NCBI GenBank assembly: GCA_030625965.1
Contig: DAOUPV010000002.1
Coordinates: 38,902 to 102,901 of the forward strand
Direction of reading: 5' to 3'
From: Clostridia bacterium
GTDB lineage: Bacteria > Bacillota > TC1 > UBA5767
Length of the DNA stretch: 64,000 nt
Part shown: positions 17,488 through 44,105 of the stretch, one piece after another
Position numbering within the stretch: position 1 is the stretch's first letter
How the letters are laid out: the number at the start of each line of letters is the position of its first letter
Program-made: the position numbers and the translations under genes
Notes under the pieces: model-generated
What the model saw: only the letters and a program-made list of their open reading frames with translations
Databases searched by the model: none
Told to the model about the DNA's origin: nothing

Positions 17488-17491
17488 GACC

Positions 17492-18106
17492 ATGACATAT
17501 AATTTGATAATTGCAGGCATTGGCGGTCAGGGCAGCATTCTGGCTTCCAGAATCGTGGCAGATGCCGCCATTCAAGCTGGTAGTGGAGTAGACGGTGATT
17601 TGAAAGTGAGAGTAGGGGAAACGTTCGGGGCCGCCATGCGTGGTGGATCTGTTGCGTCCCACGTTCGTATCGGGCCAGATGTAGGAGGGCCCCTGGTACC
17701 GAAAAATGCAGCACAGGCGATTCTTGCGCTGGAGCCCCTTGAAGGACTGCGTATAGGGATCCCCTATCTGGCACCTAGCGGCTTGGCAATACTTAACACC
17801 TCCGAGGTTATGCCTATTGATGTGAAAGTGGGCGCTGCTAGCTATCCCAAATTGGAGACGATCAAAGCGGCTCTTGAAAGTCTGGAAGGAAGAGTTTATC
17901 TGCTCGATGCGACCAGTCTGGCGCTGGAGGCCGGTAATGCAAAAACGGTAAGCGCTGTTATGCTGGGCGCCTGGGCAAATCTGGCGGAACTCCCCTTCGC
18001 CCTAGAGCAACTTAAAGAGGCGCTGCAAGGTCGAGTGCCGCCAAAAACGGTTTCTACGAATATGAAAGCATTTCAGCTTGGATTTGAGGCGGTTGCTTCA
18101 GACTAA
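17492..18106 (+). CDS. iorB: Indolepyruvate:ferredoxin oxidoreductase beta subunit (paralog 1)
   Basis: IAGIGGQGSILASRIVADAAI...RVGETFGAAMRGGSVASHVRIG. Confidence 0.9.
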   Translation: MTYNLIIAGIGGQGSILASRIVADAAIQAGSGVDGDLKVRVGETFGAAMRGGSVASHVRIGPDVGGPLVPKNAAQAILALEPLEGLRIGIPYLAPSGLAILNTSEVMPIDVKVGAASYPKLETIKAALESLEGRVYLLDATSLALEAGNAKTVSAVMLGAWANLAELPFALEQLKEALQGRVPPKTVSTNMKAFQLGFEAVASD

Positions 18107-20428: not shown

Positions 20429-22495
20429 ATGAGATATCGAATCGGTGTTGATATTGGAGGGACATTTACTGACTGTGTAGTGATTGGGGATAACAATCAG
20501 ATCCATACATTCAAGGAAATGTCTACTCCGGAAGATCAGTCAATTGGGCTTTACAATGTTATTCATAAAGCGTCTAGTTTTTTCGATAAGGGCTTAGATG
20601 AATTCTTGGAGGGGGCAGACTTATTCGTACATGGGACCACTGTGGCGACCAACACGTTGTTGACAGGTACAGGGGCGAAGACAGGGCTAATCCTGACAAA
20701 AGGTTTTCGGGATACGATAGAGATGCGAAGGGCTCATAAAGACAATATTTGGGATCTCAATCTCTTCACTCCACCACCATTAGTACCCCGTTATTTGCGG
20801 TGTGGTGTGGAAGAACGTATGAATTATTTGGGAGAAGAAGTCCTTCCATTGAATGAGCAGGACGTACTTGATGTGTGTGAAGGATTGAGAGAGGAAAAGG
20901 TAGATGCTGTTGCTATTTGCACACTCTTTTCCTATCTGAATGACAAGAATGAAAAGCGTATTAAGGAGATTGTAGAAGAACAGTTGCCAGATGCGTTTGT
21001 GTCTCGATCCTCTGAAGTATTACCTCAAATCCGCGAGTACGAGAGACAATCGACAACAGTAGCCAATGCCTATGTAGGACCTAAACTGACCGTATACTTG
21101 AAGAATCTAGAAAAGAAACTAAAGAATGACGGACTGAAAAAGGCCTTCTATGTCGTAGCATCCAATGGAGGTATGATGATGGCCGATACAGCGATACGAC
21201 ACGCTTCTGCCACCCTCCTTTCCGGCCCTGCCGCCGGCGCCACAGGTGCTATGTTCTTTGCTAACTTAGTCGATAATCCCAATCTGATCTTGTTGGATAT
21301 GGGTGGTACGTCTTTTGACGTGAGCTTGATTAACAACGCAGGTGTAACTCTATCTACAGAAGGTGAAATCGCTGGCTATCGAGTTGCAAAACCCATGATC
21401 GATATCCACACGATCGGTGCTGGTGGCGGTTCGGTTGCTTGGCTTGACAGCTGGGGGATGATCAACGTCGGACCTGAATCTGCCTATTCGAATCCCGGCC
21501 CTGTCTGTTATGGCCGTGGTGGTGTGAAACCGACGGTGACAGACGCCAATCTCCTGCTTGGGTATTTGAACAAAGACTACTTCCTCGGCGGAGAGATGGA
21601 AATTGACTTTGAAAAGTGCCACAGCATCATGAAAGAGAAAATAGCTGACAAAATGGGTATGAGCGTTGAAGAAGCAGCCAGTGGAGTATTCCAGATCGTC
21701 AACCAGAGCATGGCTGATGCCACCAAGGTGGTTTCTGTGCAAAAAGGGTATGATCCTCGTGAGTTTGCCCTGGTCAGTGCTGGAGGTGCTTGCTCCATCC
21801 ACGCTTGCAAGATTGCAGAAGAGGTTGGCTCCAAGACCATTTACGTACCTAAGGCGGCCTCGGTATTCTGCGCTCTCGGTATGTTAGAATCCGACATCCG
21901 ACTAGACAGTGTACGGAGCTTTACGGGCACCATTCCCGGGATGAATCTGGAGGACATGAATCAGGTCATCGCCGATACGGAACAGACCGCGATGGGCGAA
22001 TTGCTCCAAGAAGGTAGTAGTCGGGAAGAGTCATCTCTGGAACGCTATCTGGACGTACGCTATGTCGGACAGCACCACGAGGTTACCTTGCCTATTCCTA
22101 ACGACTGCACACTAACAGAGAAGCAAGTGGAAGAAATCGCGAACACTTTCCATGAGGCTCACGAACGACTGTACAGTTATAGCACACCTGAAACACCGAT
22201 TGAGATCGTTAACTTACGTATTACGGCAGTCGGCCATGTTGAGAAGACCGGCATGGAGAAAAAGGAAGCGGTCAAGCAGAGTGTAAATGATGCAATCAAG
22301 AATAGAAGAGCGATTTATTTCGAGGAGTATGAAGATTGGAAGGAAGTCCCCGTATATGATCGGAACATGCTCCATCCGGGACATGAAATTGAGGGACCTG
22401 CTGTTTTGGAAGAACGAATTACCACCATCATAGTGCATCCCAAATGGAATGCTAGGATTGATGACTTTGGCAACGTGATCATGGAGGTGAAATAA
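20429..22495 (+). CDS. hyuA: Hydantoinase/oxoprolinase family subunit A (HyuA)
   Basis: MRYRIGVDIGGTFTDCVVIG; ILLDMGGTSFDVSLI; DIHTIGAGGGSVAWLDSWGMINVGPESAYSNPGPVCYGRGG. Confidence 0.93.
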   Translation: MRYRIGVDIGGTFTDCVVIGDNNQIHTFKEMSTPEDQSIGLYNVIHKASSFFDKGLDEFLEGADLFVHGTTVATNTLLTGTGAKTGLILTKGFRDTIEMRRAHKDNIWDLNLFTPPPLVPRYLRCGVEERMNYLGEEVLPLNEQDVLDVCEGLREEKVDAVAICTLFSYLNDKNEKRIKEIVEEQLPDAFVSRSSEVLPQIREYERQSTTVANAYVGPKLTVYLKNLEKKLKNDGLKKAFYVVASNGGMMMADTAIRHASATLLSGPAAGATGAMFFANLVDNPNLILLDMGGTSFDVSLINNAGVTLSTEGEIAGYRVAKPMIDIHTIGAGGGSVAWLDSWGMINVGPESAYSNPGPVCYGRGGVKPTVTDANLLLGYLNKDYFLGGEMEIDFEKCHSIMKEKIADKMGMSVEEAASGVFQIVNQSMADATKVVSVQKGYDPREFALVSAGGACSIHACKIAEEVGSKTIYVPKAASVFCALGMLESDIRLDSVRSFTGTIPGMNLEDMNQVIADTEQTAMGELLQEGSSREESSLERYLDVRYVGQHHEVTLPIPNDCTLTEKQVEEIANTFHEAHERLYSYSTPETPIEIVNLRITAVGHVEKTGMEKKEAVKQSVNDAIKNRRAIYFEEYEDWKEVPVYDRNMLHPGHEIEGPAVLEERITTIIVHPKWNARIDDFGNVIMEVK

Positions 22496-24255
22496 TGGCT
22501 ATCTCTAATGAAAGAAAAACAGAATTTGAAGGTGCGAAAGATCCGATTACGTTTGCGGTTATCTACAATCGCCTACTGACTATCAACCGTGAAATGGGTA
22601 TCACTATGATTAACACCTCAATCTCACCCATTTTTGCAGAAGTACATGATTTCTCTTGCGCTATCTGTGATTGGGAGAACCGAATCGTATCCCAAGTAGA
22701 CGGCGTCCCCTCGCATACTGCATCAGCCATGGAGTCAGTACGTGCCATTGCAAGGTATTTTGGTGATGATATCAATCCCGGAGATGTGTTTGTTTTGAAC
22801 GATCCTTATAACGGAGGCACACATCTACAGGATGTGACCATCATGAAGCCGGTTTTCTTCGAAGAACGTCTTCAGTTCTTCGCCATCAACCGCGCACACC
22901 ATGGCGACGTGGGAGGAATGGAACCAGGTTCCTATTGTCCGACAGCTACGGAACTTTTCCATGAAGGGATCAGGATTCCACCAGTGCGTATCTACAAGAA
23001 TGAAAAACCGATCCAGGATGTGGTCGATATGATTCGCATCAATACCAGAATGCCAGATGATCTGTGGGTCGATGTAAAAGCTCAGATAGCTTCATGTCGA
23101 GTCGGAGAAAAGCGAATACTGGAAATGATGGAGAAATACGGGGAGAGAAAAACCCGTGAGACCATTGAGGATATCCATATGTATGCGGAAAACCGTATGC
23201 GGGATGAAATCACGAAGCTTCCTGATGGAGTCTACCACGGACATTCAATCCTCGATTCGGATGGATTATCGGACGATCCTATTGATATCAAGGTGACGAT
23301 CACCATTGACGGTGATGAAGCTTTGGTTGATTTCGTAGGTAGCAGCCCACAGGTGACAGGCCCGAGTAACTCTCCCATTGCCAATACAGAGACGTGCGTC
23401 TATGTTGCCTTTCTGACAACAGTCACAACGCCGGATATCCCCCACAATGAAGGAGTATACAGACCGATTAAGATTACAGCTCCAGCTGGCAGTGTAGTCA
23501 ATTCCGAATTTCCGGCCCCGGTAGCGTACTGTACCCTGGATACAGCGTGCGCGATCCTGGAAGCATGTTGGATGGCCATGGCAGATATCCTTCCTGACAG
23601 AGTACCTGCAGGTTGGAATCGCTGGAATGGACCAACCATCACCGGAGTGGATCCACGTAATGAAGCTTTCTACGTCATGTTTGGATTCAACGGTTTTGGC
23701 GGCGCAGGGGCTTCGAAAGGTGAGGATGGACGCCATTACATCGGAGACGGTATTGATCTTGGTGGCTTGATTGCACCCAATATCGAAACCAACGAAGTGG
23801 ATTATCCCCATATCACCGAGTTCAATGAGTTCGATACCGATTCATGTGGGGCAGGTGAATTCAGAGGCGGATGTGGTGCCAAGTACAAGATCAAATACTA
23901 TGATGAGGCTCAAACCGATATGGTGATGTTCGGCGACGGACGGATCAATCCGCCGTATGCCCTGTTTGGTGGAAAGCCAGGTTCGCTGAATATGGCGTAC
24001 ATCAACGAGGGTACAGATAAAGAGGAACTCTTGAAATCCAAGGGCGCCGTGTCGCTGCCGAACGGCGGAAGTTTCTCGACGTATCCGTCTGGTGGAGGCG
24101 GCTGGGGAGATCCCAAAAAGCGTTCTGCCGAAAAGGTGCGGCTGGATGTGAAGAATGGATATATCTCCCGTCAAGCAGCAAACGATGTGTACGGTGTCTC
24201 CCTGACAGATGAGTTGGAGATCAATGTCGAGTCGACAGCGCAATTGCGTAGTTAG
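22495..24255 (+). CDS. hyuB: Hydantoinase B/oxoprolinase family subunit (HyuB)
   Basis: DPITFAVIYNRLLTINREMGITMINTSISPIFAE; NDPYNGGTHLQDVTIMKPVF; GGGGWGDPKKR C-terminus. Confidence 0.93.
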   Translation: MAISNERKTEFEGAKDPITFAVIYNRLLTINREMGITMINTSISPIFAEVHDFSCAICDWENRIVSQVDGVPSHTASAMESVRAIARYFGDDINPGDVFVLNDPYNGGTHLQDVTIMKPVFFEERLQFFAINRAHHGDVGGMEPGSYCPTATELFHEGIRIPPVRIYKNEKPIQDVVDMIRINTRMPDDLWVDVKAQIASCRVGEKRILEMMEKYGERKTRETIEDIHMYAENRMRDEITKLPDGVYHGHSILDSDGLSDDPIDIKVTITIDGDEALVDFVGSSPQVTGPSNSPIANTETCVYVAFLTTVTTPDIPHNEGVYRPIKITAPAGSVVNSEFPAPVAYCTLDTACAILEACWMAMADILPDRVPAGWNRWNGPTITGVDPRNEAFYVMFGFNGFGGAGASKGEDGRHYIGDGIDLGGLIAPNIETNEVDYPHITEFNEFDTDSCGAGEFRGGCGAKYKIKYYDEAQTDMVMFGDGRINPPYALFGGKPGSLNMAYINEGTDKEELLKSKGAVSLPNGGSFSTYPSGGGGWGDPKKRSAEKVRLDVKNGYISRQAANDVYGVSLTDELEINVESTAQLRS

Positions 24256-25434: not shown

Positions 25435-25501
25435 TTGGCGCATACAAGCAGTCTGTATTCAAATCTAGTGTTTGGTAAAAAAAAGATATGGAGGAATTAG
25501 C

Positions 25502-26494
25502 ATGAGAGAGTTACAAGGAAGAAGCATCTTAGGTATCAACGAACTTACTGCAGATGAAATCAGATTTATTCTCGACACATCCCACGACTTCAAGCGTAAG
25601 TGGAAGACCGGGGAGCTCCACGAATATCTTCGGGGCAAGAGTCTTGCCGGTATCTTTGCAACCCAGTCTACTCGCACAAGCTCATCATTCGAAACGGCCA
25701 TGACTGCTTTGGGAGGCCATATGCTGTGGTTGGACAAAAGCCGCATCTGGGCAGGTACAGCAGCAGCTGAATCCTGGCCTGATACCATCAGAACCCTTAC
25801 AAGATACGTGCACGGGATCGCCTATCGTCCAGTGAATCGCCAGATGTTGGATTTGACTGAAGAATTGGCAAGTGTTCCCGTCATCAATGCTTCATGTCCG
25901 GTCGAGCATCCTACCCAGGCGCTTGCAGACGTGATGACCATGCAGGAGCATGGCGGCGGCAGCGTCAAGAAAGCCAAGGTGGCTTTACTCTGGGGCTACG
26001 GAGAATTGAATCCTCCTTGCGGCCTACCCAACTCAACGCTGGCCATGGCCACACGCATGGGCTTTGATGTCAGCATCGCATGTCCCGAAGGCATGGATCC
26101 GGACGCCAATTATATTAATGCAGCCATGAAGGAAAGCACTGCGGGCGGATCGAAGATCGAGATTGTGCGGTCTTATGAAGAAGCCACCAAGGACGCTGAC
26201 TTCATAAACGTATATTCTTGGGTGAGTCCTGAAATCTTTGCGGAAGGTCCGGAAACCGGATATCGTGGCAATCCTGAATTCGCGAAATATAAGGAATCAC
26301 TCAAGGACTGGTGTGTTACTAAGGACATAGTCAATACAGCGCCTAAGAGTGTCAAAGTTATGCATTGCCTACCGGCAGCCCGTGAAGAAGAGGTTACGAG
26401 TGAAGTGCTTGATGCGCCCAATTCCATCATCTTTGATGAGGCAGAAAACAGAATGCATACGATTAAGGCTTTGCTAGCACTTACGCTAGGATAA
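25502..26494 (+). CDS. Aspartate/ornithine carbamoyltransferase superfamily protein (YgeW-like; not a canonical OTC)
   Basis: Carbamoyl-phosphate motif STRTSSSFETAM, EHPTQALADVMTM, MHCLPAAREEEV; canonical ornithine-binding SMG replaced (NVYSWVSPEIF). Confidence 0.82.
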   Translation: MRELQGRSILGINELTADEIRFILDTSHDFKRKWKTGELHEYLRGKSLAGIFATQSTRTSSSFETAMTALGGHMLWLDKSRIWAGTAAAESWPDTIRTLTRYVHGIAYRPVNRQMLDLTEELASVPVINASCPVEHPTQALADVMTMQEHGGGSVKKAKVALLWGYGELNPPCGLPNSTLAMATRMGFDVSIACPEGMDPDANYINAAMKESTAGGSKIEIVRSYEEATKDADFINVYSWVSPEIFAEGPETGYRGNPEFAKYKESLKDWCVTKDIVNTAPKSVKVMHCLPAAREEEVTSEVLDAPNSIIFDEAENRMHTIKALLALTLG

Positions 26495-28538: not shown

Positions 28539-28957
28539 TAGAAAATATATAGTGTGATTTTCTAAATAAATATATTGATTGGAGCAATTGTTATGGCAAG
28601 TTCGACTTGCCATAACGGCTCTGATTAAGTAATTGTACAATTCCCCGGATTTGAATTTGTAAGGTTTCATCAGTTCCAAATATATCATACGCCATTATAA
28701 TTATTCATTCATATTTCATAATATGTTCATCCATCATGCTGAAATGAATTTCCAATCTTTAGTATACAGTGCAACATAACTATTTTGCGGGGAAGTATTA
28801 CGAGTCAAGAATTACTAGAAAATGTTTATTATCATTAATATCAGGCATCTATTTTCGTGTTTTGCGATGAAAGAATGGGTAAGACTCTAATAGAAGTTGT
28901 GCTATCCATTGAATATTGTTTGAATACGAACAAAATATAATTTTCATAGGAGGAAAT

Positions 28958-30142
28958 ATGGATTTAAGTGTAGATATTGCAGGGATTAAATTAAACAGCC
29001 CGATTATTTCTTCATCCGGTGTGGACGGTAAGGATGGTGAGCGCATTCAACAGATCAGTGAATACAATCTTGGAGCGGCAACGACCAAGACCATTGTCAA
29101 AGATATGTTTGTTGATGTAATACCTAATATGAAAGCCGTCAAGGGTGGCTCGATGATCAACTGTGTTTTCGGGGCCAACCTCACTTCTGACCAGTGGTTC
29201 AAGGAAGAATTTCCCAAGGCGTTGGAGGCAGGCATTCCCATCATTGCCAATATGGCCGGGCAGAATCCCGATGAAGCCATCGAACTGGCGAAGGGCTGTG
29301 AGGCAGCTGGTGCGAGTTTCATTGAGTACCCAACAGCGTGCCCCCACATGGGCAACATTCTGGAGGCCATGTATCCCGGTTTGAAGATCGACTTGCCGGA
29401 AGTGTCTGATCCAAGTGAATATGCCCGCCAGATCGAGGCGGTAAAGAAAGCGGTCAATATCCCCGTGATTGCGAAATTCAGTGCGATTTATCATCTGAAC
29501 TGCAAAGAATGGGCGAAGGCGGTCGTAGAGGCAGGTGCTGACGTAATTTCCACAGCGGACTCTATCGGTCCGGCGATAGGCATTGATATCGAGACAGGAC
29601 AACCGCTCCTGGGTGGTCCCAAGGGCTATGGAGGCCTTACCGGGGCAGCCCTGAAACCCCTGGTGCTGCGTATGGTGATGGAGATAACCGAGGCGGTCGA
29701 CGTGCCAGTGATCGGTATCGGTGGTATTGCCACCGGAGCAGATGCGATCGAGTATATCATGGCGGGTGCATCAGCAGTGGCCATGGCTTCATCTACCACG
29801 ATGTACGGATATGAGCGGTATGGCGACGTCTATGACGGCATTGTCAAATTCATGAAACGCAAAGGCTACAACAGCCTTGATGAAATACGGGGCCTGGCCC
29901 ACAAGCGGATTGCCGAGCGGGTGGAGAATGAGCAACAAATCATCCATACTCCTTTAGTTCCGACTCGTAACATGGGCGTGTGCAATTCTTGTCTCAATTG
30001 CTTGATGGCTTGTCCTTACGGGGCGATTGATATGGGTGAAACTGGTCCTATATTCATCGAAGAAAATTGCCATGGATGCGGCATGTGTGTTTCCGTCTGC
30101 GGCAACAATGCCATTTCGCAGCAATATTACAAGGTGGATTAA
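28958..30142 (+). CDS. preA: Dihydropyrimidine dehydrogenase PreA-like / dihydroorotate dehydrogenase-family protein with C-terminal 2x[4Fe-4S]
   Basis: MDLSVDIAGIKLNSPIISSSGVDG; GGIATGADAIEYIMAGASAV; CNSCLNCLMACPYGAI / CHGCGMCVSVCGNNAI. Confidence 0.8.
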   Translation: MDLSVDIAGIKLNSPIISSSGVDGKDGERIQQISEYNLGAATTKTIVKDMFVDVIPNMKAVKGGSMINCVFGANLTSDQWFKEEFPKALEAGIPIIANMAGQNPDEAIELAKGCEAAGASFIEYPTACPHMGNILEAMYPGLKIDLPEVSDPSEYARQIEAVKKAVNIPVIAKFSAIYHLNCKEWAKAVVEAGADVISTADSIGPAIGIDIETGQPLLGGPKGYGGLTGAALKPLVLRMVMEITEAVDVPVIGIGGIATGADAIEYIMAGASAVAMASSTTMYGYERYGDVYDGIVKFMKRKGYNSLDEIRGLAHKRIAERVENEQQIIHTPLVPTRNMGVCNSCLNCLMACPYGAIDMGETGPIFIEENCHGCGMCVSVCGNNAISQQYYKVD

Positions 30143-30163
30143 AGTAGTAAAGGAGGAGATTCT

Positions 30164-31543
30164 GTGATTGATCTATTGATTAAAAATGCTCTGGTGCTGA
30201 CTTTTGATAAAGGTGCTGCCTCTGGCAAAATGATTGAAAACGGAGCGGTGGCGATTAAGGGTAATACCATTGCCGACCTTGGGGATAGCGATACTTTGTC
30301 CAAAATGTATCCAGGTGCTGAAACCATAGATGCCAAGGGGAAAATCGTGATGCCTGGTTTTATCGTGACCCATACCCATATGTCTTATGTATTAGGCCAC
30401 AACATGCCAGTGGATTTTTCTCAGGTACAGGATTTCTGGGATATGCTGCAGAAAATGGGCTGGGAGTGGCTGGAGGACCTCATCACACAAGAAGGCGTCT
30501 ATGCCGCTACACGTTATTCTGCCACAAAATTACTAAAGAGCGGAACGACGACGGTATGTGAATTCGTTGAAGGGCCGAATGCGTTACCAGGTATTTTGGA
30601 TGCTAGCGCCAAAGCCATTGAAGAGACGGGGATTCGGGCTCAACTTGGATTCGAGGTGACGGAACGCGTACCAGGTGAACATATTCTCGAGAGGGTATCC
30701 CTGGTGAATGCAGATAAAGCGTTTGCTGAAAACGTCGCTTTTTTTGAAAAATATCCTGGTGGTAAGGACTCGCGCATCCAAGGACGGCTTGGCCTGCATA
30801 CCGCTTTTACCAACTCGCGTTCGACAATGGAAAAGGCAAGAAAGATTGCCAATCAGTATGACGTAGGCATCCAGGTGCATATCGCTGAAATTCCTCGGGC
30901 ATTTATGCTTGAGAAGCACGGCATGTCTGCACCACAAATCCTTGAAGAAACAGGAGTATTGGGACCCGATGTAATTGCGGCGCATTGTATCGATTTGACA
31001 GATGAAGATGTAGCGATTCTTGCGCGCAACAATGTTAATATCTCCCATACCCCCATGACCAACTCTTTTGGCGGAAACGGTGTAGCGAGAGTGCCTTTCA
31101 TGATGGATCAAGGCCTTAATATGACGATTGGACACGACTGTTTCTTCTCTCTGGATATTGCCGAATATCTGCGTTATACCTTTTTGTTGCACAAGGCGCA
31201 CCAAGCCAATGCTGGGCTGTTGCCCATAACGCAAGTCTTGGATATGCTGCTGGGCAATGCGGCGCGGGCTCTGGGGATGGAAAAACAGATAGGAAGTCTT
31301 AAAATAGGCAAGAAGGCAGATCTGATTATCATTAATCCGAACAGTCCGACACCGATAGCCCCTTGCTCAGCGCTGAGCTATTATAATATGACGTTCCAAG
31401 GGCAGCATGTGGAGACTGTCATCGTGGATGGACAAATCGTTGTTAAAGATGGTCAAGCTACCTTGGTGGATGAGGTTGAAACGATGAGAGAGTGCCAGGA
31501 ACAAGCAAAAATCCTGTGGCGCAAAAACGGGATTACGATCTAG
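30164..31543 (+). CDS. Amidohydrolase family protein (SsnA/TRZ-ATZ-like deaminase)
   Basis: PGFIVTHTHMSYVLG metal motif; IQVHIAEI; DVIAAHCIDLTDEDVAILARNNVNISHTPMTN; IGHDC. Confidence 0.82.
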   Translation: MIDLLIKNALVLTFDKGAASGKMIENGAVAIKGNTIADLGDSDTLSKMYPGAETIDAKGKIVMPGFIVTHTHMSYVLGHNMPVDFSQVQDFWDMLQKMGWEWLEDLITQEGVYAATRYSATKLLKSGTTTVCEFVEGPNALPGILDASAKAIEETGIRAQLGFEVTERVPGEHILERVSLVNADKAFAENVAFFEKYPGGKDSRIQGRLGLHTAFTNSRSTMEKARKIANQYDVGIQVHIAEIPRAFMLEKHGMSAPQILEETGVLGPDVIAAHCIDLTDEDVAILARNNVNISHTPMTNSFGGNGVARVPFMMDQGLNMTIGHDCFFSLDIAEYLRYTFLLHKAHQANAGLLPITQVLDMLLGNAARALGMEKQIGSLKIGKKADLIIINPNSPTPIAPCSALSYYNMTFQGQHVETVIVDGQIVVKDGQATLVDEVETMRECQEQAKILWRKNGITI

Positions 31544-32952: not shown

Positions 32953-34911
32953 ATGAGTGTAAAGATTTTACAAGAAGCCGGCAAACGCGACCTCTTAATG
33001 GGGAACGAAGCAATTGCCCGTGGGGCAGTAGAGGCAGGGGTGCAGCTGATGGCTGCATATCCAGGTACACCCTCTTCGGAAATCGGCGAAGTACTGTTTG
33101 AGGCAGCCCCCGAGAGCGATTTCTATGTTGAATGGAGTGTCAATGAGAAAGTCGCCTTTGAAGTGGCAGCGGGAGCATCATTTGTTGGGGCCCGTACGAT
33201 GGTGGCTATGAAGAATGCGGGTCTGAATGTAGCAATGGACACCTTCATGACGCTACCTTATGGTGGCATCAAGGGTGGGATGGTGGTCGTGGTCGCTGAT
33301 GATCCGGACGCTCATTATTCTTCCAACGAACAGGATACTCGGTTTGCTGCTTCATATGCTGAGATACCTTGTTTTGAGCCGGAGAACCAGCAGGAGGCCA
33401 AAGATATGGCCAGAGAGGCCTTCACCTTGTCGGAGGAAGTGGGCTTGCCTGTATTCCTGCGTTCGGTTAGCCGCATATCACATGCCAGTGGGGACGTTCT
33501 CTTCGACCAGTGCGAGAAAACGCGCAATAATCTTGCTTTCAATAAGCATTACAAATTGCCTTATCGTTGGAATGTCTACGGGCCTCCAGGTGCGATCAGC
33601 AAGCATGCGTGGCTGCACGATGTGTTGCCCCAGGTCCAATCTTTAGCCAATAAAAGCCCTTATAATTCTACCTTGAAACCGGAAGGGGCCAAGACAGGAA
33701 TTATCGCCAGTGGTTTGGCTGCTGCGTATGCCCGGGAGGCTTTGTCTCGTCTGGGATTGAGCGACGAGGTTGCTTTCCTCAAATTGGGATTCATCTATCC
33801 TTTGCCGGATGAATTGGTTAGCAGTTTCTTTGACGGTCTTGATCAGGTAATCATGATCGAGGAAGGGGATCCGGTAGTAGAAAACATGGTCCGCTCCCTC
33901 GCCAAAGAGGTCGCTCCGCTGGTTAAGATCAGCGGCAAGAGTTACAATCCCATTTTCAATCCGTATGGTGAATTGAACACGGATATCGTCACGGACGCAC
34001 TGGCGGACGTATTCGGGATGGAGTTGGCTGCGGACGACAAGGAAAAGGTCCGTGAGGAAAAGGCATCCTTGGTCGTACCGCGATCATCGACACTGTGTGC
34101 CGGTTGCTCGCACCTGGGTTCCTATGCTGCTTTGAAGAAGGCGTTGCAGCGCTACCCTGAAGACGAGGTGCATATCATCAACGGAGATATCGGATGCTAC
34201 GAGCAGGCTGGTTACGGCATCTTCGCAAGTGGTAATCTTGCCAGTGATGCTGATTCGATGGCTTTCAAACCTGACTCGCCATACGATATGTTGGATACCA
34301 TTTACGTGATGGGCAGCGGCATAAGCATGGCCCACGGACAGAACAAAGTTGGCTACAAGGATGGCAAAGTGGTCGCTGTCTGCGGCGATTCTACGCTTTT
34401 CCACGGGATACTCCCCGCGCTTATGAACATTGTCTATAACCAATCGGATATCACCTTCTTGATTCTTGACAACCGTTGGACCTGCATGACGGGACACCAG
34501 CCGAATCCCAATACGGGTTATGATGTTTATGGCGATGAGTACCCCCGTGCGGATATTCCTTCTATTGTGCAAGCGATGGGGATCAAATCTGTGAGGACTG
34601 TGGACGCATACGACCAGGAAGAAGCCGAAGAAGCCATTTCTGAGGCGCTGGACTATGAAGGGCCCGCAGTTGTGATTCTCGAAGGTGAATGTCAGCTTCA
34701 AAAACAACGAAGAGTTAAGAAAAGCTTGGCAAAAACATACATCAGTGTCAATGAATGTGACGGCTGTAAGAGTTGCGTGCAGTTGGGCTGTCCTGCAATC
34801 ATGTTCGATATTACGGAAAAGAAATCCAGAATTGACAATGTGCTGTGCGTGGACTGTGGACTTTGCATGCAAAACTGTCCGAATGACGCGATTAAGATGA
34901 GGAGGCGCTAG
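32953..34911 (+). CDS. iorA: Indolepyruvate:ferredoxin oxidoreductase alpha subunit (paralog 2)
   Basis: LLMGNEAIARGAVEAGVQLMAAYPGTPSSEIGE; C-terminal CDGCKSCVQLGCP / CVDCGLCMQNCP. Confidence 0.9.
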   Translation: MSVKILQEAGKRDLLMGNEAIARGAVEAGVQLMAAYPGTPSSEIGEVLFEAAPESDFYVEWSVNEKVAFEVAAGASFVGARTMVAMKNAGLNVAMDTFMTLPYGGIKGGMVVVVADDPDAHYSSNEQDTRFAASYAEIPCFEPENQQEAKDMAREAFTLSEEVGLPVFLRSVSRISHASGDVLFDQCEKTRNNLAFNKHYKLPYRWNVYGPPGAISKHAWLHDVLPQVQSLANKSPYNSTLKPEGAKTGIIASGLAAAYAREALSRLGLSDEVAFLKLGFIYPLPDELVSSFFDGLDQVIMIEEGDPVVENMVRSLAKEVAPLVKISGKSYNPIFNPYGELNTDIVTDALADVFGMELAADDKEKVREEKASLVVPRSSTLCAGCSHLGSYAALKKALQRYPEDEVHIINGDIGCYEQAGYGIFASGNLASDADSMAFKPDSPYDMLDTIYVMGSGISMAHGQNKVGYKDGKVVAVCGDSTLFHGILPALMNIVYNQSDITFLILDNRWTCMTGHQPNPNTGYDVYGDEYPRADIPSIVQAMGIKSVRTVDAYDQEEAEEAISEALDYEGPAVVILEGECQLQKQRRVKKSLAKTYISVNECDGCKSCVQLGCPAIMFDITEKKSRIDNVLCVDCGLCMQNCPNDAIKMRRR

Positions 34912-34913
34912 TG

Positions 34914-35543
34914 ATGGAACGAAATGTTATTGTAGCAGGAATTGGCGGACAGGGTAGTATTTTAGCGTCGCACTTGATTGCCGAGGCAACCATCAAGACA
35001 CATGACGACAAGTATAATATTCGAGTAGGCGAAACGTTCGGCGCGGCGCAGCGTGGTGGTGCAGTGGCTTCTCACGTGCGCATCGGCGAGACGGTCTATT
35101 CCCCACTGGTGGGAAAAGGGAAAGCTGATCTGATTCTGGCGCTGGAGCCGTTGGAAGGCCTGCGTGTGGGAGTACCGTATCTCTCAGCGGAAGGCATGGT
35201 AATCATCAATACGAAGATGGAGATTCCGGTGGATGTCAAGGTGGGAGCCGTAGAGTATCCTGCATTGGAAGATATTGTCGGTTCCATGGACGATATCGGA
35301 GAGAAGGTCATCACGATCGACGGTTCGAGGATCGCTGCTACCGCGGGTAGCTCTAAAGTGCTCAGTGTGGTGATGTTGGGAGCAGCTTTTGCTAGCGGAT
35401 TGATTCCGGTAGCAGAGGATATCATGTTGGATGTAATTACTCAGAAAGTCCCGCCCAAGACCGTGGAGATGAATATGAAGGCCTTTGAAATGGGTAAGGA
35501 GGCATATTTTGCTGCGGCCGACAACAAGGAGCTGGCTGGCTAG
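34914..35543 (+). CDS. iorB: Indolepyruvate:ferredoxin oxidoreductase beta subunit (paralog 2)
   Basis: VAGIGGQGSILASHLIAEATI...RVGETFGAAQRGGAVASHVRIG. Confidence 0.9.
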   Translation: MERNVIVAGIGGQGSILASHLIAEATIKTHDDKYNIRVGETFGAAQRGGAVASHVRIGETVYSPLVGKGKADLILALEPLEGLRVGVPYLSAEGMVIINTKMEIPVDVKVGAVEYPALEDIVGSMDDIGEKVITIDGSRIAATAGSSKVLSVVMLGAAFASGLIPVAEDIMLDVITQKVPPKTVEMNMKAFEMGKEAYFAAADNKELAG

Positions 35544-36584: not shown

Positions 36585-38882
36585 ATGCCGCTTTTTGCGG
36601 AGGGAAACAAAAAGTATTCTCATATCAATAAATTCTGTCCCCGGGTAGACGCAAAGGAGAAGGTTACCGGCAGGGCGGACTATGCAGCCGACCTAGTATT
36701 TCCCGACATGCTGTTTGGGGGCTCGCTTCACGGACCGTACACCCATGCAAAGGTGAAGCGGATTTGCGTGGAGAAAGCCCTGGCAGTGCCTGGCGTTAGA
36801 GCGGTCCTGACATATAAGGATCTTAATAAGCCCTTCAGCTGGGGCTACTACACCTATATGACAGAAATACTGCGATACGAGGGTGACGTGGTGGCCATTG
36901 TAGCTGCGGACACAAAACACGCGCTTGAGGCGGGTCTAGAAGCGATAGATGTTGAGTACGAGGAACTGCCTGCAGTGTATACCATCGATGAGGCGATGGC
37001 TGACGGCGCTCCTTTGGTACATGAGAACAACGAAGATTGTGCCGGTAATATTTGGAGCCACGCCAGATGTAAAGTGAGAAAAGGTGATGTGGATGTAGCC
37101 TTTACCGACTGTGATGTGATTGTTGAGCGGGAGTATGAAACACAGGCTGTGGAACATCTGTATCTGGAACCGGAAGCGGCCGTAGCTGTACCGGAAAAGA
37201 ATGGCTGCATGACCGTCTACGCTTGTGCTGCGAATCCTTTCTTCGGTCGCAGATGGATTGCGGATAGTCTAGGTATCCCGCGCAGTAAGGCGCGTTTGGT
37301 GCAGACGACTATAGGCGGATCCTTCGGTGGCAAGGAGGAGTTGATGGGATTGACCATTGGTAGGGCTTCATTGTTGGCCGATGCTACAGGTCATCCTGTG
37401 AAGATGGTAATTAGTCGCGAAGAATCTATCGTTTGCAGTTCCAAACGACACCCCTTCAAGTTCAAGTATAAGGCAGGCGTCAACAAAGACGGCAAGCTGC
37501 AGGCGTTACAAGTGACGCTCATTGAAGATGTAGGCGCCTATCATATGCATGAATTCATGAGTTTCCGGGCTGTTGTACATGCAGCCGGCGCGTATGTGAT
37601 TCCCAATGTGAAGGTGGATATCTTAGGTGTGTTCACCAATACGGTTACCTCGGGAGCAATGCGTGGTTATAGCTCGCCGCAGATTATCTATGCACAGGAA
37701 CAGTTCTACGAGGAAGTCGCCGAAGAACTTGGTATGGATTTCCTAGCCTTTAAGAAATCCAATATGTTACATAAAGGGGCCATTCACCCTTGCGGCCAAG
37801 AGCTCAATGAAGAGGTGATTCTTCCCGAGATCATTGAAAACCTCTGCGCCAAAACCGATTTTGAGGGAAAACGTAAGAAGTACGCCAACCAGACTGGAGA
37901 CAAGCGAAAAGGCATCGGTATGAGTATTTTTCACCGGGGGTGCGGATTGGGGAATGAATCAATTGATGCCTCAGCTGCATACATATGTGTACACGATGAT
38001 GGCTCGGTGATGGTCAATGTAGGCCTAGTGGAGAACGGCCAGGGATTGCATACAGCCTATTCCCAGATTGTTGCAGAGACGCTGGGTGTTCCTGTAGAGA
38101 AAATATTGGTCAATAAGGTGGATACCAATACCATATTGGATAGCGGTCCCACAGTTGCTTCACGTTGTACTGTTATGGGAGCACAGTCGGTAAGAAAAGC
38201 AGCCCAGGAGCTTAAAAGCTATCTGAAAGAGACAGCGGCGATGATGTTCCATACGGAAAGCCCGGATCAAGTTGCTTTGGAGGATGGCATGTTTATACTC
38301 ATCGGAGTGCCGGATGCTGCGATTCCTTTCCATGAGGTTTGCAATGTGCATCACTGGACTGGTGGACAGAGCGGGGTTATGAACTGGTATAAACCGCCCA
38401 AGCTGAGTTTCAGCTGCAAAACCGGATTTGGTGATGCGTTTCCGACCTATTCTTACAGCGTTTGTGTCGCCGAGGTGGAAGTCGACTACAAAACAGGCGA
38501 AATAACGGTGGAAAAAGTCACGTCCGGACACGACGTAGGTACGGTTATCAATCCCGAAACCTCAAAGGGTCAGATCTTCGGTGGAATCGCCATGGGCCAG
38601 GGTTTTGCAATGATGGAAAACCTGGCCATCAAGGATGGAAAGATCCGCAACAAAAATCTGGATACCTTCATGATTGCCAGCAGTATGGATACTCCTGAGA
38701 TGGAAGCGATCTTGTTTGAGTGTGAGGATAAGACGGGTACCTATGGGGCAAAGAGTCTGGGCGAAAACGCCACCGAGGGAGTTGCTTCCGCCATCATCAA
38801 TGCACTGCATAATGCAACGGGAGAGCGAATAAATAAAATTCCCATCAACAAAGTCAAGATGTTTGAGTTGCTACATAAATAG
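36585..38882 (+). CDS. Xanthine dehydrogenase-family molybdenum-binding subunit
   Basis: RVDAKEKVTGRADYAADLVFPDMLFG; GGSFGGKEELMG; AMRGYSSPQ; GMGQ-type FGGIAMGQGFAMMENL; ENATEGVASAIINA. Confidence 0.9.
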   Translation: MPLFAEGNKKYSHINKFCPRVDAKEKVTGRADYAADLVFPDMLFGGSLHGPYTHAKVKRICVEKALAVPGVRAVLTYKDLNKPFSWGYYTYMTEILRYEGDVVAIVAADTKHALEAGLEAIDVEYEELPAVYTIDEAMADGAPLVHENNEDCAGNIWSHARCKVRKGDVDVAFTDCDVIVEREYETQAVEHLYLEPEAAVAVPEKNGCMTVYACAANPFFGRRWIADSLGIPRSKARLVQTTIGGSFGGKEELMGLTIGRASLLADATGHPVKMVISREESIVCSSKRHPFKFKYKAGVNKDGKLQALQVTLIEDVGAYHMHEFMSFRAVVHAAGAYVIPNVKVDILGVFTNTVTSGAMRGYSSPQIIYAQEQFYEEVAEELGMDFLAFKKSNMLHKGAIHPCGQELNEEVILPEIIENLCAKTDFEGKRKKYANQTGDKRKGIGMSIFHRGCGLGNESIDASAAYICVHDDGSVMVNVGLVENGQGLHTAYSQIVAETLGVPVEKILVNKVDTNTILDSGPTVASRCTVMGAQSVRKAAQELKSYLKETAAMMFHTESPDQVALEDGMFILIGVPDAAIPFHEVCNVHHWTGGQSGVMNWYKPPKLSFSCKTGFGDAFPTYSYSVCVAEVEVDYKTGEITVEKVTSGHDVGTVINPETSKGQIFGGIAMGQGFAMMENLAIKDGKIRNKNLDTFMIASSMDTPEMEAILFECEDKTGTYGAKSLGENATEGVASAIINALHNATGERINKIPINKVKMFELLHK

Positions 38883-38932
38883 GGGAGCTCGCTTTTTCTG
38901 TCAACTTATAGAAAGGTATGGTGAATTTCCGC

Positions 38933-39415
38933 ATGAGTGAAAATATAAAGATCGCATTTACGTTGAATGGTGAAGTGGTTAACTTGGAGGTGGAACCAGA
39001 TCAGACGCTGCTCTCGGCACTGCGGGATAATCTGGGGATGACTGGTGTCAAGGAAGGATGTTCCATCGGTGAATGCGGCACCTGCACGGTCATCGTTGAC
39101 GGCAAAGCGACAAAGAGCTGCATTGCTCTGGCAGCAGCATTTGACGGCAGAGAGATTGTCACCATCGAAGGTTTGGCCAATGGCGATCAGTTGCATCCTA
39201 TCCAGGAAGCCTTCATTGAAAAAAATGCGATACAATGTGGTTTCTGTACCCCTGGTTTTATTATGAGTGCTTTGGCATATCTGGAAAAGCATCCCCGGCC
39301 TAGGCGTGAAGAGATTCGAAAAGCAATTTCAGGAAACCTGTGCCGTTGTACAGGCTATGAGCAGATTGTCGATGCTATCGAATACTATGCTAATGAAATG
39401 GAAGAAGCTCAATAA
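38933..39415 (+). CDS. Xanthine dehydrogenase-family [2Fe-2S] subunit
   Basis: VKEGCSIGECGTCTVIVDGKATKSC and QCGFCTPGFIMSALAYLEKHPRPRREEIRKAISGNLCRCTGYEQIVDAIE. Confidence 0.95.
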   Translation: MSENIKIAFTLNGEVVNLEVEPDQTLLSALRDNLGMTGVKEGCSIGECGTCTVIVDGKATKSCIALAAAFDGREIVTIEGLANGDQLHPIQEAFIEKNAIQCGFCTPGFIMSALAYLEKHPRPRREEIRKAISGNLCRCTGYEQIVDAIEYYANEMEEAQ

Positions 39416-39427
39416 GAGGTGGAAATA

Positions 39428-42400
39428 ATGGATGATTTTCGTAATGTTACGGTTAGTATTGATGGGAAAAAGGTCATCGCCCATGCGGGAGATAATATAT
39501 GGGATGTGGCGCTATCCGCTGGGATAGAAATTCCCAACCTCTGTCATGACACCAAACTTAATCCGAATGGGAAATGTGGCTTATGTGTGGTGCAGATTGA
39601 TGGCAAAGAGCCGGTATGTGCATGTGAGACACCTGTACATGACGGAATGGACATCGTAACTGAAAACGAGTTGCTCGCCTCCATGCGTTGCGAGGCACTG
39701 CAGAAGATGGCGGACAAGCATCGCGGTGATTGCATCGCCCCTTGCCGTTTGGAATGTCCGGCGGATAGCGATTGCCAAGGTTATGCGGGCTTGATTGCCG
39801 AGGGTTACTTCTCAGAAGCACTGCAGTTATTAAAAGAAAAATATCCTTTGCCTGCCTCGTTGGGTCGGATATGTCCGCATCCTTGCGAGGAGGCCTGTAG
39901 ACGCAATCTTCTCGAGGGCCCTGTATCACTGGCGAAGCTGAAGCGCTTTGCGGCGGACGTCGATTTGGGATTGGAAACGTCATACATGCCCGAGACGGAC
40001 GCCTTGACAGGGAAAAGCGTAGCGATCATCGGCAGCGGTCCAGCAGGGCTGACGGCAGCCTGGCAGCTGCTGCAAAAGGGCCATAAGGTGACGATATATG
40101 AAGCCATGCCCGAAATGGGCGGGATGCTGCGTTATGGCATTCCAGAATTTCGGCTGCCGAAAGCTGTTCTGGATCAGGAAATCGCACTGATAGAGGCCAT
40201 GGGCGCGAAGATGAATATTTCCTGTCCCATCGATGAGAAGCGGTTCGATGAACTGAGAAAGCAGTACGACGCGGTATTCGTTTCCATTGGGGCTTGGAAG
40301 AGCTCATCGCTTAATATTCCGGGAGAGTATTTGCATAACGTCATGAGTGGATTGGATTTCTTACGTCGAATCGCACAGCAGGAAACGCTGAACTTGGGCA
40401 AACACGTCGTCGTGGTTGGAGGGGGCAACACAGCCATCGATGCCTGCCGAGCAGCCTACCGTTTACCGAGCGTGAAAAAGGTTACCCTGGTTTACCGTAG
40501 AGCGCGTGATCAAATGCCGGTCATTGAAGAGGAACTGCTGGAAGCAGAGAAAGAAGGTATCGAGTTCTGCTTCTTGGCTACCCCGGTAGAAGTCAAACCA
40601 TGTAACGACGAACTCTATCTGGTTCTGCAAAAGATGCATTTGGCAATGCCGGATGCATCAGGGCGTAGACGCCCTGAACCGATTACGGGCGAAATCCGGG
40701 AATGTTCTTGTGATTATTTAATCGTAGCGATCGGTCAGCAGGTCGATACGGGAGGCTTCCCCCAACTGAATCTTTCGCATCAGGGGACGATCCAGACGGA
40801 CGACCGACTGCAGACCGGTATGCCGGGTGTTTTCGCAGGCGGTGACGCGGCGAATTCCGGCCCTGGCCTGGCGGTGGAGGCTGTCGCGGACGGACAGAAG
40901 GCCGCGAGAGCCATCGACGCCTATCTGCGTGGCGAGGAGTACGTCGAGCAGGACAAGACCTATTTCAGGCAAAATGACCTGACTGCTGAAGCGTTCTCCC
41001 ATGTCAATCCGCAGGAACGGGTAGCAGCGCCAATTCTGGATTGCAGCGACAGGATGAAGAATTTCACGGAAACCGCTGGGGGATTCTCAGCAGATGAAGC
41101 TGTGCAAGAAGCTTCGCGTTGTTTGGAGTGTGGGTGTCTTGATTTATATGAATGCAAGTTGCTCTCCTATATGAAACAGTATGGCATGGAAACAGCGGTG
41201 CCAGACCAGACACCGCGTCAAGTCATTGATCGCCGTCATCCATATATTCATTACGATCCCAATAAATGCGTTCTTTGCGGATTGTGTGTTCGTGTTTGTT
41301 CCGAGATGATGGGATACGATTCTTGGAAGCTCGATGAAAGCGGTAATCATGCACTGATCAAAACTGCTTCAGGTGGAGCGCTCCAGACTACATCTTGCAT
41401 CGGATGCGGTCAGTGTGTGGAACATTGTCCTACCGGAGCGCTAACGGAACGAAATCCCAGGCAAAAACCGCTGGTACTTCCTCCCAGCAAACAACGTAGT
41501 GTTTGTAATTATTGTGGCGTGGGCTGTAGCACCGAAATTCATAGTTACGGCAATGCTCTCATCAAGGTCAAGCCGATCGTTGACGGATCATTGGAGGAAA
41601 ATATTCTCTGTCGCCATGGACGATTCGGTTGGCACACGGTCTTGAGCGAAAAGGGACTCACGTCTCCATTATGTATGGATGAAGGATGTTTTCAACCTGC
41701 CAGCTGGGATGATGCCTATCTAGCGATCCATGAGGAGATCAACCGTGTGCAGCGGACGTATGGCAGTGATGCCATCGGCATCTTGGTCGCTGATCGTATG
41801 ACCAGCGAGGAGATCTATCTTTCCCGCAAGCTCGGGGAGAGTATCGGCACCAGCAGCTTCTATAGCGCCAATGTATACGACGGCGGTTTGGAAGAGGTTC
41901 TAGGTCTGGATGGCAGCAGCAATAGCTATCAAGAACTTGCCGAGACGGATTTGATATTCATCCTTGGGGCTGATGTTCCTTCTTATTATGCAATGTTGGC
42001 TGTGCCGGTACAAAAGGCCAAAAAGAAGGGCGCCAAGCTGTTGCTGGCGGCAGCTGAGGGCTGGAATGGCTTCAATATGCTAGCAGATCAGCGTGCAGTC
42101 GTGGAGGACGATACAAGATTTCTCAAAGAAATGCTCCAATATCTTCTCAGACAGTGTTGTTGTCCAACCAACGCCGAAGGTTATGAACAATTGGTTGTCT
42201 CCCTGGCGGGTGTAGAGCCAAGTGAGGAGGCGACAGCCTTCGCCAAAGCGTACCTGGAAGCGCCTAATGCGATGATCATGCTCGATCGTGAGCGAGTTTC
42301 AACGGAGACAGCACGTTTGCTTGCCAATCTAGCCGTCATCAGCGGACATATCGGCAAGCCCAAAAACGGATTGATACAGATGCTGCAACATAGCAATACT

Positions 42401-42994
42401 CAGAGTGTGTCTTATATGAACATCCGCGCCAATATGTCTGATTTACAAGAAGACATACAGAGTGGAAAAATCAAAGGCTTGATCTTGGTTGAGCAATTCA
42501 TTGATAAGGAATTAGCGAATTCCCTCGAATTCATAATGCTGATGGACAGTATGTCCGGTCCGGCTTTTGAGTATGCAGACGTATTTCTTCCCATGCCAGG
42601 ATATGGCGCCTTTGACGGCAGTTATGTTAACGCTGAAGGGCGGGTGCAACGTCTGCAGCGAGTCTTAGCACCACCAGCCGGCAAGGATGGCTGGCAAGTT
42701 TTGGATGACATGATTGGCTATATTGATCCAGCACAACAACTGTCAACTTTGGAAGCGGTGCAAGATGAGTTGAGTCAGAGATTTCCTTTATATAAGCCCT
42801 GTTTGCAGGGGGGGGAGGATTTTGTTGCAGGTGGTCCAGTTTGCTATCAAAACGGATTCGCTTTTACTGATGGCAATGCCCGTTTATATCCTGCACAACC
42901 AGATTCGAGAATGTTTAGCGAGATGATATTTGCAGATGTACCTTTGGTCGTCTGGTTTGATCAGTTGATAAAGGAAGGTCTGCTGCAATACTAG
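39428..42994 (+). CDS. Large fusion oxidoreductase: 2Fe-2S + GltD/NfnB-like FAD-NAD(P) module + 4Fe-4S ferredoxin domains + NuoG/FDH-like molybdopterin-fold domain
   Basis: CHDTKLNPNGKCGLCVVQIDG; CPHPCEEACRR; VAIIGSGPAGLTAAWQL; VVVVGGGNTAIDACRAAYRL; CVLCGLCVRVC; CIGCGQCVEHCPTG; CNYCGVGC...ILCRHGRFGW. Confidence 0.88.
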   Translation: MDDFRNVTVSIDGKKVIAHAGDNIWDVALSAGIEIPNLCHDTKLNPNGKCGLCVVQIDGKEPVCACETPVHDGMDIVTENELLASMRCEALQKMADKHRGDCIAPCRLECPADSDCQGYAGLIAEGYFSEALQLLKEKYPLPASLGRICPHPCEEACRRNLLEGPVSLAKLKRFAADVDLGLETSYMPETDALTGKSVAIIGSGPAGLTAAWQLLQKGHKVTIYEAMPEMGGMLRYGIPEFRLPKAVLDQEIALIEAMGAKMNISCPIDEKRFDELRKQYDAVFVSIGAWKSSSLNIPGEYLHNVMSGLDFLRRIAQQETLNLGKHVVVVGGGNTAIDACRAAYRLPSVKKVTLVYRRARDQMPVIEEELLEAEKEGIEFCFLATPVEVKPCNDELYLVLQKMHLAMPDASGRRRPEPITGEIRECSCDYLIVAIGQQVDTGGFPQLNLSHQGTIQTDDRLQTGMPGVFAGGDAANSGPGLAVEAVADGQKAARAIDAYLRGEEYVEQDKTYFRQNDLTAEAFSHVNPQERVAAPILDCSDRMKNFTETAGGFSADEAVQEASRCLECGCLDLYECKLLSYMKQYGMETAVPDQTPRQVIDRRHPYIHYDPNKCVLCGLCVRVCSEMMGYDSWKLDESGNHALIKTASGGALQTTSCIGCGQCVEHCPTGALTERNPRQKPLVLPPSKQRSVCNYCGVGCSTEIHSYGNALIKVKPIVDGSLEENILCRHGRFGWHTVLSEKGLTSPLCMDEGCFQPASWDDAYLAIHEEINRVQRTYGSDAIGILVADRMTSEEIYLSRKLGESIGTSSFYSANVYDGGLEEVLGLDGSSNSYQELAETDLIFILGADVPSYYAMLAVPVQKAKKKGAKLLLAAAEGWNGFNMLADQRAVVEDDTRFLKEMLQYLLRQCCCPTNAEGYEQLVVSLAGVEPSEEATAFAKAYLEAPNAMIMLDRERVSTETARLLANLAVISGHIGKPKNGLIQMLQHSNTQSVSYMNIRANMSDLQEDIQSGKIKGLILVEQFIDKELANSLEFIMLMDSMSGPAFEYADVFLPMPGYGAFDGSYVNAEGRVQRLQRVLAPPAGKDGWQVLDDMIGYIDPAQQLSTLEAVQDELSQRFPLYKPCLQGGEDFVAGGPVCYQNGFAFTDGNARLYPAQPDSRMFSEMIFADVPLVVWFDQLIKEGLLQY

Positions 42995-43043: not shown

Positions 43044-43904
43044 ATGAGCGGTTTTGAGTATGTAAGGTCGAACGGCATCCAAGAGACACTCAATATTCTG
43101 GCGAAGGAAAAAGAAGATTCTGTATTGGTAGCTGGTGCGACTAATGTTATGAATGATATTCGTTCAAGAAAACTGCAGAATAAAATCCTAGTGGATATAA
43201 GCAATATCGGAGAATTGTCTGGTATTACACAAGAAGACGGCATGATTCGCATTGGCGCTTTAACAACAGTGGCTGATATAGCTAAAAGCGCGCTGCTCTG
43301 TAAGCAGGCACCGGCGCTGTACCAAGCAGCTCAGGTCTTTGCGGATCCCAGCACCTGTAACTATGCAACCATAGGTGGAAACATTGCCCATGCATGTCCG
43401 GCTGCTGACACAGCACCACCATTGCTTGCACTAGATGCAGAGGTGGAAATCGCCAAGAAGGGCAATATCCGCACGCTGCATATCAATAATTTTTTCCTCG
43501 GATTTTACTCTAACCAATTGGATGATGACGAGCTTATCGTAGCGATTCGATTCAAACCACAGCGGTGCAGTGCATTTGAGAAGATCGGTCTTCGTAGTGC
43601 GATGTCAATCGCATTATTGTCTGTAGCGGTTGCTGTGGAAATCGATCAGCAGGAAAAGGTGCGTACGTGCGCAATCGCTCTTGGTGCGGCAGCGCCGCGT
43701 CCTGTGCGTGCATCGCATGCGGAGGCGGTTATGATAGGATCCAAGCCGACTCCGGAGCTATATGCGAAAATGGCGGAGGCACTTTGTGAGGATATCGCTC
43801 CCAATCCAAAGAGCGCACGAGCTAGCAAATTATATAGGGAAGTAGTTGGAGGCTCATTGCTAGAAAAAGTATTCAAGAATGCAATAGGCAGTGCCATAGA
43901 ATAA
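43044..43904 (+). CDS. Xanthine dehydrogenase-family FAD-binding subunit
   Basis: VLVAGATNVMNDIRSRK; NYATIGGNIAHACPAADTAPPLLALDAEVEI; CoxM-like C-terminus. Confidence 0.9.
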   Translation: MSGFEYVRSNGIQETLNILAKEKEDSVLVAGATNVMNDIRSRKLQNKILVDISNIGELSGITQEDGMIRIGALTTVADIAKSALLCKQAPALYQAAQVFADPSTCNYATIGGNIAHACPAADTAPPLLALDAEVEIAKKGNIRTLHINNFFLGFYSNQLDDDELIVAIRFKPQRCSAFEKIGLRSAMSIALLSVAVAVEIDQQEKVRTCAIALGAAAPRPVRASHAEAVMIGSKPTPELYAKMAEALCEDIAPNPKSARASKLYREVVGGSLLEKVFKNAIGSAIE

Positions 43905-44055: not shown

Positions 44056-44105
44056 TGGATAAGAGGGATTGGAATATCTAATCTTTCTTATCCTCTTTTT
44101 ATTTT
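44056..44105 (+). terminator. Probable terminator of the catabolic cluster
   Basis: GGATAAGAgggattggaatatctaatctTTCTTATCCTCTTTTTATTTT. Confidence 0.6.

Follow-up and report, generated by a model that had tools for sequence, protein, structure and literature searches.

StnC of Sporomusa ovata is a fusion of GltD and NuoG with six 4Fe-4S clusters, one 2Fe-2S cluster, FAD and NADPH (PMC10482914). The FAD of StnC is non-bifurcating, bifurcation being carried out by StnAB, and its inactive FdhF-like part is needed for assembly (PMC10482914). For the Sporomusa protein it has been demonstrated that NADPH is oxidised at the non-bifurcating FAD and that electrons pass along the clusters to the partner. 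With methyl viologen as acceptor, isolated StnC oxidises NADPH at 58 U/mg. The same subunit type is found in NfnABC of Caldicellulosiruptor saccharolyticus (9bov) and Thermococcus sibiricus (9n5u), the top fold and sequence matches to the protein described here. These complexes use NuoE/NuoF-type subunits, whereas the operon that encodes our protein has none. The gene lies at 39428-42994 in the window, by which we mean the whole 64,000-nucleotide stretch analysed, and it sits within a xanthine dehydrogenase (XDH)-type operon. All features of the gene and of this operon are on the + strand.

Using phmmer against the PDB, about 1100 residues of the protein could be aligned with C. saccharolyticus NfnABC (9bov_A; 891 bits) and with S. 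ovata StnC (8oh5_C; 845 bits). An AlphaFold model, which has low confidence at residues 590-660 and was used solely for fold assignment, gave these same structures as the top Foldseek chains (38% identity to 9bov and 37% to 8oh5). As in StnC subunits, a GltD-like part is fused to a NuoG/FDH-like part at a length of about 1170 aa, and the ligand sets for one 2Fe-2S and six 4Fe-4S clusters are present along with the C7 lysine. Judged by homology, the protein is therefore a known subunit type (StnC/NfnABC) and not an unknown fusion. Novelty of the polypeptide is thus not supported. An earlier first-pass annotation, made from the letters alone, had itself named identity to a characterised NADPH-dependent enzyme as refuting its reading, and the sequence and fold comparisons show this identity. 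The resemblance to Sporomusa StnC (8oh5; PMC10482914, PMC7483475) extends over the whole architecture, at 37% identity, and covers the cluster set, the C7 lysine, the FAD/NADPH module and the inactive FDH-like part. In contrast to Sporomusa StnABC, the window operon lacks StnA and StnB, two otherwise conserved motifs are gone from the StnC-type protein, and the setting is an XDH operon.

The open frame spans 39419-42994, and residues are numbered here from 39419 (1191 aa). The intact ORF itself encodes 1188 aa from the ATG at 39428, a start that is backed by a ribosome-binding site (AGAGGTGG) at 39415-39422. Above curated cut-offs, Pfam assigns Fer2_4 (residues 5-80), Fer4_20 (102-178), which is a dihydropyrimidine-dehydrogenase-type 4Fe-4S domain, Pyr_redox_2 (197-489), two Fer4 stretches (605-673), Molybdop_Fe4S4 (690-738) and Molybdopterin (744-1094), which confirms the first-pass description of 2Fe-2S, GltD/NfnB, ferredoxin and molybdopterin parts in a single polypeptide. 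Aligned with 62 full-length homologs of StnC, the protein retains 26 of 26 invariant cluster cysteines and also C119 (StnC C114), which is partly conserved. The N-terminal 2Fe-2S ligands C42, C53, C56 and C69 (39542-39625) are Cys in 62/62 canonical StnCs, and the 4Fe-4S ligands C568, C571, C573 and C579 (41120-41155) are likewise invariant in the 62. From Pfam and the alignments, the GltD/NfnB-like module (39731-40933) is assigned two 4Fe-4S sites (C105-C160), FAD and an NADP(H) site; it contains GGGNTA and YRRAR, which are NADP-binding motifs, and K175 and R245 align with StnC K170, the C7 lysine, and R239. Two ferredoxin-type 4Fe-4S motifs follow (C617-C627 and C660-C670; 41267-41428), and a last 4Fe-4S site (C696-C731) belongs to the FDH/NuoG-like C-terminal part (41489-42991). 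The protein would thus be expected to carry one 2Fe-2S and six 4Fe-4S clusters, as StnC does; the first-pass annotation had named genuine motifs but counted too few clusters.

When the C-terminal part was aligned with a working FDH (9wxb), CARVCHSP fell on SANVYDG, with Tyr at the position of the catalytic Cys. The earlier claim that no catalytic ligand is present therefore stands, but it had been read from the wrong place, as GSSNSYQEL lies about 15-20 residues C-terminal to the catalytic position. Pfam gave no match to the C-terminal Molydop_binding domain at E 0.001, so that this domain and the catalytic Cys/Sec of formate dehydrogenase alpha subunits are both missing. A formate dehydrogenase was ruled out because the catalytic Cys is absent and the NCBIfam Fdh-alpha cut-off is missed (179 versus 666 bits). 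The FDH-like part is catalytically dead and, by analogy with StnC, probably serves assembly; the combination of a non-catalytic NuoG/FDH-like part with a GltD/NfnB module, as first proposed, is supported.

The StnC-type gene starts 12 bp past the gene for the XdhC-type 2x[2Fe-2S] subunit (38918-39415) and ends 49 bp ahead of that for the XdhB-type FAD subunit (43044-43904), as had been noted from the letters. An XdhA-type Mo subunit is encoded upstream (36585-38882) and contains the candidate active-site motifs SREES, AMRGY and SLGEN. All three subunits give strong XDH-type family matches that fall under the curated NCBIfam cut-offs (XdhA, 539 versus 780 bits; XdhC, 200 versus 217 bits; XdhB, 210 bits). 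The operon is closed after XdhB by its one terminator-like hairpin (44057-44093; a 17-pair stem, then a T-rich tail). Codon use of the StnC-type gene, which is ordinary, and the short flanking gaps give no sign of an assembly chimera or of foreign DNA. Homologs of all subunits of the three-subunit XdhABC enzyme are present; unlike XdhABC, the operon has the gene for the 1188-aa subunit inserted between XdhC and XdhB, and a different lineage supplies its XdhB. The nearest relatives of XdhA and XdhC (53-55%) are in same-genus operons ordered SsnA-XdhA-XdhB-XdhC-GltD-like (872 aa), while the best match of XdhB is in another genome (48%, G314) and its identity to the sister operons of XdhA is 32-33%. 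By these matches, XdhB is from another XDH lineage than XdhA and XdhC. As XdhA/XdhC, XdhB and StnC are closest to separate sources, the operon looks like a mosaic of three sources. XdhB has altered FAD motifs (GATN, ADPSTCN), and we considered whether these point to a new docking partner; this was ruled out, because the AGxTN/FADP pattern characterises a subfamily of XdhB that occurs in ordinary XDH operons.

Canonical StnC genes are accompanied by StnB. In 95 of 102 related loci a NuoF-type gene (StnB) lies directly upstream; of the remaining seven, two abut a contig edge, two hold the second fragment of a StnC with a broken frame, and L023, L024 and L025 encode GltD proteins that are short, truncated or different in other ways. 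Every full-length copy with readable context among these loci has an adjacent NuoF; the window copy does not. Neither StnA nor StnB was found in the window XDH operon, so that the co-encoded NuoE-like and NuoF-like subunits of an Stn/NfnABC complex are absent from it. The sole NuoE/NuoF pair in the genome (97.8% complete) belongs to an [FeFe]-hydrogenase HydABC operon; RnfC is also present. In the genomes of the class (10), no further StnC is present. No second XDH-linked StnC was found in those ten, in 398 genomes of the phylum, in two further classes or in a scan of named genomes, the scan and the 398-genome sample being of a kind that may miss members, and the open-access literature yielded no report of StnC or NfnABC with XDH. 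One candidate second case, an XDH 4 kb downstream of StnABC (G316/L094), was rejected because a sensor kinase and a regulator lie between, which places the XDH outside the StnABC operon. The survey also returned StnC-like genes with neither NuoF nor XDH adjoining in termite-gut Oscillospiraceae MAGs (L023:10001-11464 and L024:9941-11671), rumen and hindgut Clostridia MAGs (L011-L022) in which StnAB is followed by a short StnC of about 676 aa without the FDH-like half, and a Desulfobacteraceae MAG (L025:6112-8187) in which the last gene of an Rnf operon apparently encodes a 691-aa fusion of RnfB with a GltD/NfnB-like NAD(P)H module.

The divergence of the window StnC is unevenly distributed. 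Among 63 sequences compared by mean identity to the rest, it is the most divergent at residues 1-104 (2Fe-2S), 331-470 (NADP) and 561-690 (Fe-S exit), and is ordinary in the GltD Fe-S, FAD and FDH-like parts. These three segments show an excess distance over the sister lineage of 0.40 [0.25-0.57], 0.25 [0.13-0.36] and 0.26 [0.14-0.40], respectively; for the GltD Fe-S and FAD parts the excess is about zero, and for the FDH-like part it is negative. Two short stretches are altered most clearly. At residues 91-104 (39689-39730), the canonical LELLLSDHxGDC is replaced by LQKMADKHRGDC, with four of eight conserved columns lost against at most one in any of the 62 canonical StnCs; the linker at 631-658, which is without ALGLVNRGF, has lost five of eight against at most two. 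The ELLL..H and RG signatures that have disappeared here also occur in HydA and in NuoG-like proteins, which have NuoF as their common partner. Their loss may reflect the loss of a NuoF-type docking side, in which the two motifs would form the interface. ELLL is no strict sign of a neighbouring NuoF gene, since the orphan proteins of L023 and L024 retain it without one. In the full-length tree the window StnC is nested among canonical StnCs, beside single-genus copies with StnABC operons (support 0.997), on the longest branch of the tree, and long branches can distort placement; in a tree of the FDH-like part its placement has support 0.999. In the tree of the N-terminal 2Fe-2S segment it groups elsewhere, as expected of a short, fast-evolving piece.

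XDH-type operons of the same class repeatedly carry a GltD-family oxidoreductase, in the form of an 872-aa protein, which misses the NF045663 cut-off, a relative of about 410 aa, or YgfK. YgfK, AegA, YgfT and the 872-aa proteins share with the window StnC a GltD-like NAD(P)H-FAD-4Fe-4S core tied to XDH/SsnA genes, but none has a NuoG/FDH-like half, and the NCBIfam scores of the window protein are far from the respective cut-offs (YgfK, 331 versus 835; AegA, 229 versus 1003; YgfT, 214 versus 1154 bits). NCBIfam names AegA and YgfT for formate-dependent urate use in E. coli, in which AegA and UacF have been implicated (PMC12507026). In anaerobic purine breakdown such flavoproteins act as donors or acceptors of reducing equivalents; YgfK of E. 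coli works with NAD(P)H, and C. difficile UacX and XdhD are without an NAD(P)H module (PMC12507026). Upstream of the window operon, a PreA/UacX-like flavoprotein (28916-30142) and an SsnA-like aminohydrolase (together 28916-31543, +; NCBIfam matches under equivalog cut-offs) are, by pathway analogy (PMC12507026), possible candidates for purine ring-reduction and ring-opening steps. The window also encodes two indolepyruvate:ferredoxin oxidoreductases (IORs; gene pairs at 15550-18106 and 32953-35543), the second flanked by alpha and beta genes of an ADP-forming acyl-CoA synthetase. Two caprolactamase/ATP-dependent hydantoinase-type genes (CapA/CapB-like, under cut-off) lie at 20429-24255, and a carbamoyltransferase gene is near them at 25472-26494. 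The genome (G000, 2.57 Mb) has about 20 XDH-family Mo-subunit genes (e.g. L171, L175 and L165), several of them in SsnA-XdhA-XdhB-XdhC clusters that also encode YgfK or another GltD-like protein, and looks like that of an N-heterocycle specialist.

We propose, with a probability of roughly 0.6, that this StnC departed from an Stn transhydrogenase and became the NADP(H)-side redox subunit of an XDH-type Mo-hydroxylase that does not bifurcate. StnC would have taken the GltD slot of an XDH. Hydride would be exchanged between NADP(H) and the FAD of the GltD-like module, and single electrons would run along the retained 4Fe-4S/2Fe-2S chain to the XDH 2Fe-2S and FAD subunits and on to the Mo site, or in reverse; the dead FDH-like part would have an assembly role, as in StnC. 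Supporting this reading are the homology to StnC, the retained cysteines with K175 and R245, the absent StnAB, the position interleaved with XDH genes, the uneven divergence, the lost HydA/NuoG motifs, the tree nested within StnC, and the GltD partners of XDH elsewhere. It is limited by its occurrence in one genome, and XdhB retains an FAD-type fold that could serve NAD(P) alone. We infer contact of the window StnC with XDH, and its use of NADP(H), from these features. As to direction, NADPH driving a reductive purine step is slightly favoured, given that candidate ring-reduction genes lie close by and that StnC has been studied in this sense. Purine and NADP couples are close in potential, so bifurcation would not be needed.

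Other explanations were weighed against the same evidence. The protein could still be an Stn subunit that borrows HydB and HydC of the hydrogenase in trans and bifurcates electrons from NADPH to NAD+ and ferredoxin; lying within the XDH operon would then couple expression only. HydBC is a bifurcating module homologous to StnAB (PMC10482914), the genome encodes both HydC and HydB, and every cluster of the StnC exit path is retained. We nevertheless consider this unlikely: no family member diverges more in the 2Fe-2S and Fe-S segments, the motifs common to NuoF-docking proteins are gone, HydBC is in its own hydrogenase operon, and StnAB adjoins StnC in all readable full-length canonical cases. 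A doubtful alternative is that the protein acts as a PreT, in which case the PreA/UacX-like flavoprotein, and not XDH, would be the main recipient of electrons from NADPH. PreA-type proteins depend on a GltD-like partner or some other donor, PreA has a GltD-family neighbour in XDH/SsnA clusters of other genomes (L213 and L214), and C. difficile UacX is without an FAD domain, its donor being thought to be ferredoxin (PMC12507026). The StnC-type gene, however, lies inside the XDH genes, seven genes from the PreA-like gene, and StnC has a large NuoG-like part that PreT is without.

The first-pass annotation had suggested a hub that bifurcates or confurcates electrons among XDH, NADP(H) and ferredoxin. 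An electron-transfer role with a Mo-hydroxylase and NADP(H) is likely to survive from that proposal; bifurcation is not, since StnA and StnB are absent and the Fe-S exit motifs are lost. The NfnB-like fold, the many retained clusters and two ferredoxin-producing IORs encoded nearby are in keeping with such a hub, but the flavin of StnC is non-bifurcating and the operon encodes no NfnA, StnA or StnB partner. Ferredoxin as a partner fares no better, as no ferredoxin-binding module was recognised in the protein and nothing was found that points to a ferredoxin site; the tie of the gene to the IORs or the PreA-like protein is one of co-location. We judge a true hub very improbable. Least credible is a chance insertion or decaying gene without a role in XDH: there is one genome with three fast-evolving segments, yet the 1188-aa ORF is intact, with a ribosome-binding site and all 26 invariant cluster cysteines, and its divergence is domain-specific and not uniform. 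A further and improbable reading is a four-subunit Mo-hydroxylase in which the StnC module couples purine hydroxylation or dehydroxylation to NADP(H) and, via the spare FDH-like branch, to a second carrier; if true, this would be a previously undescribed wiring of XDH to cell redox pools.

Published accounts describe Stn and Bfu enzymes as combining one NuoE/NuoF-type bifurcating core with varied input modules (PMC10482914, PMC9304861). If the NADP(H)-side reading of the window StnC is correct, this case would be the reverse, in which the input module has been recruited by Mo-hydroxylases, a quite different enzyme class. Modular reuse of this sort was expected by the Stn paper (PMC10482914), and the Bfu survey names no XDH (PMC9304861). 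For several XDH and UacX-type enzymes, the electron donor is so far conjectural (PMC12507026); an XDH served by StnC would provide a defined path by which NADP(H) enters the anaerobic breakdown of purines.
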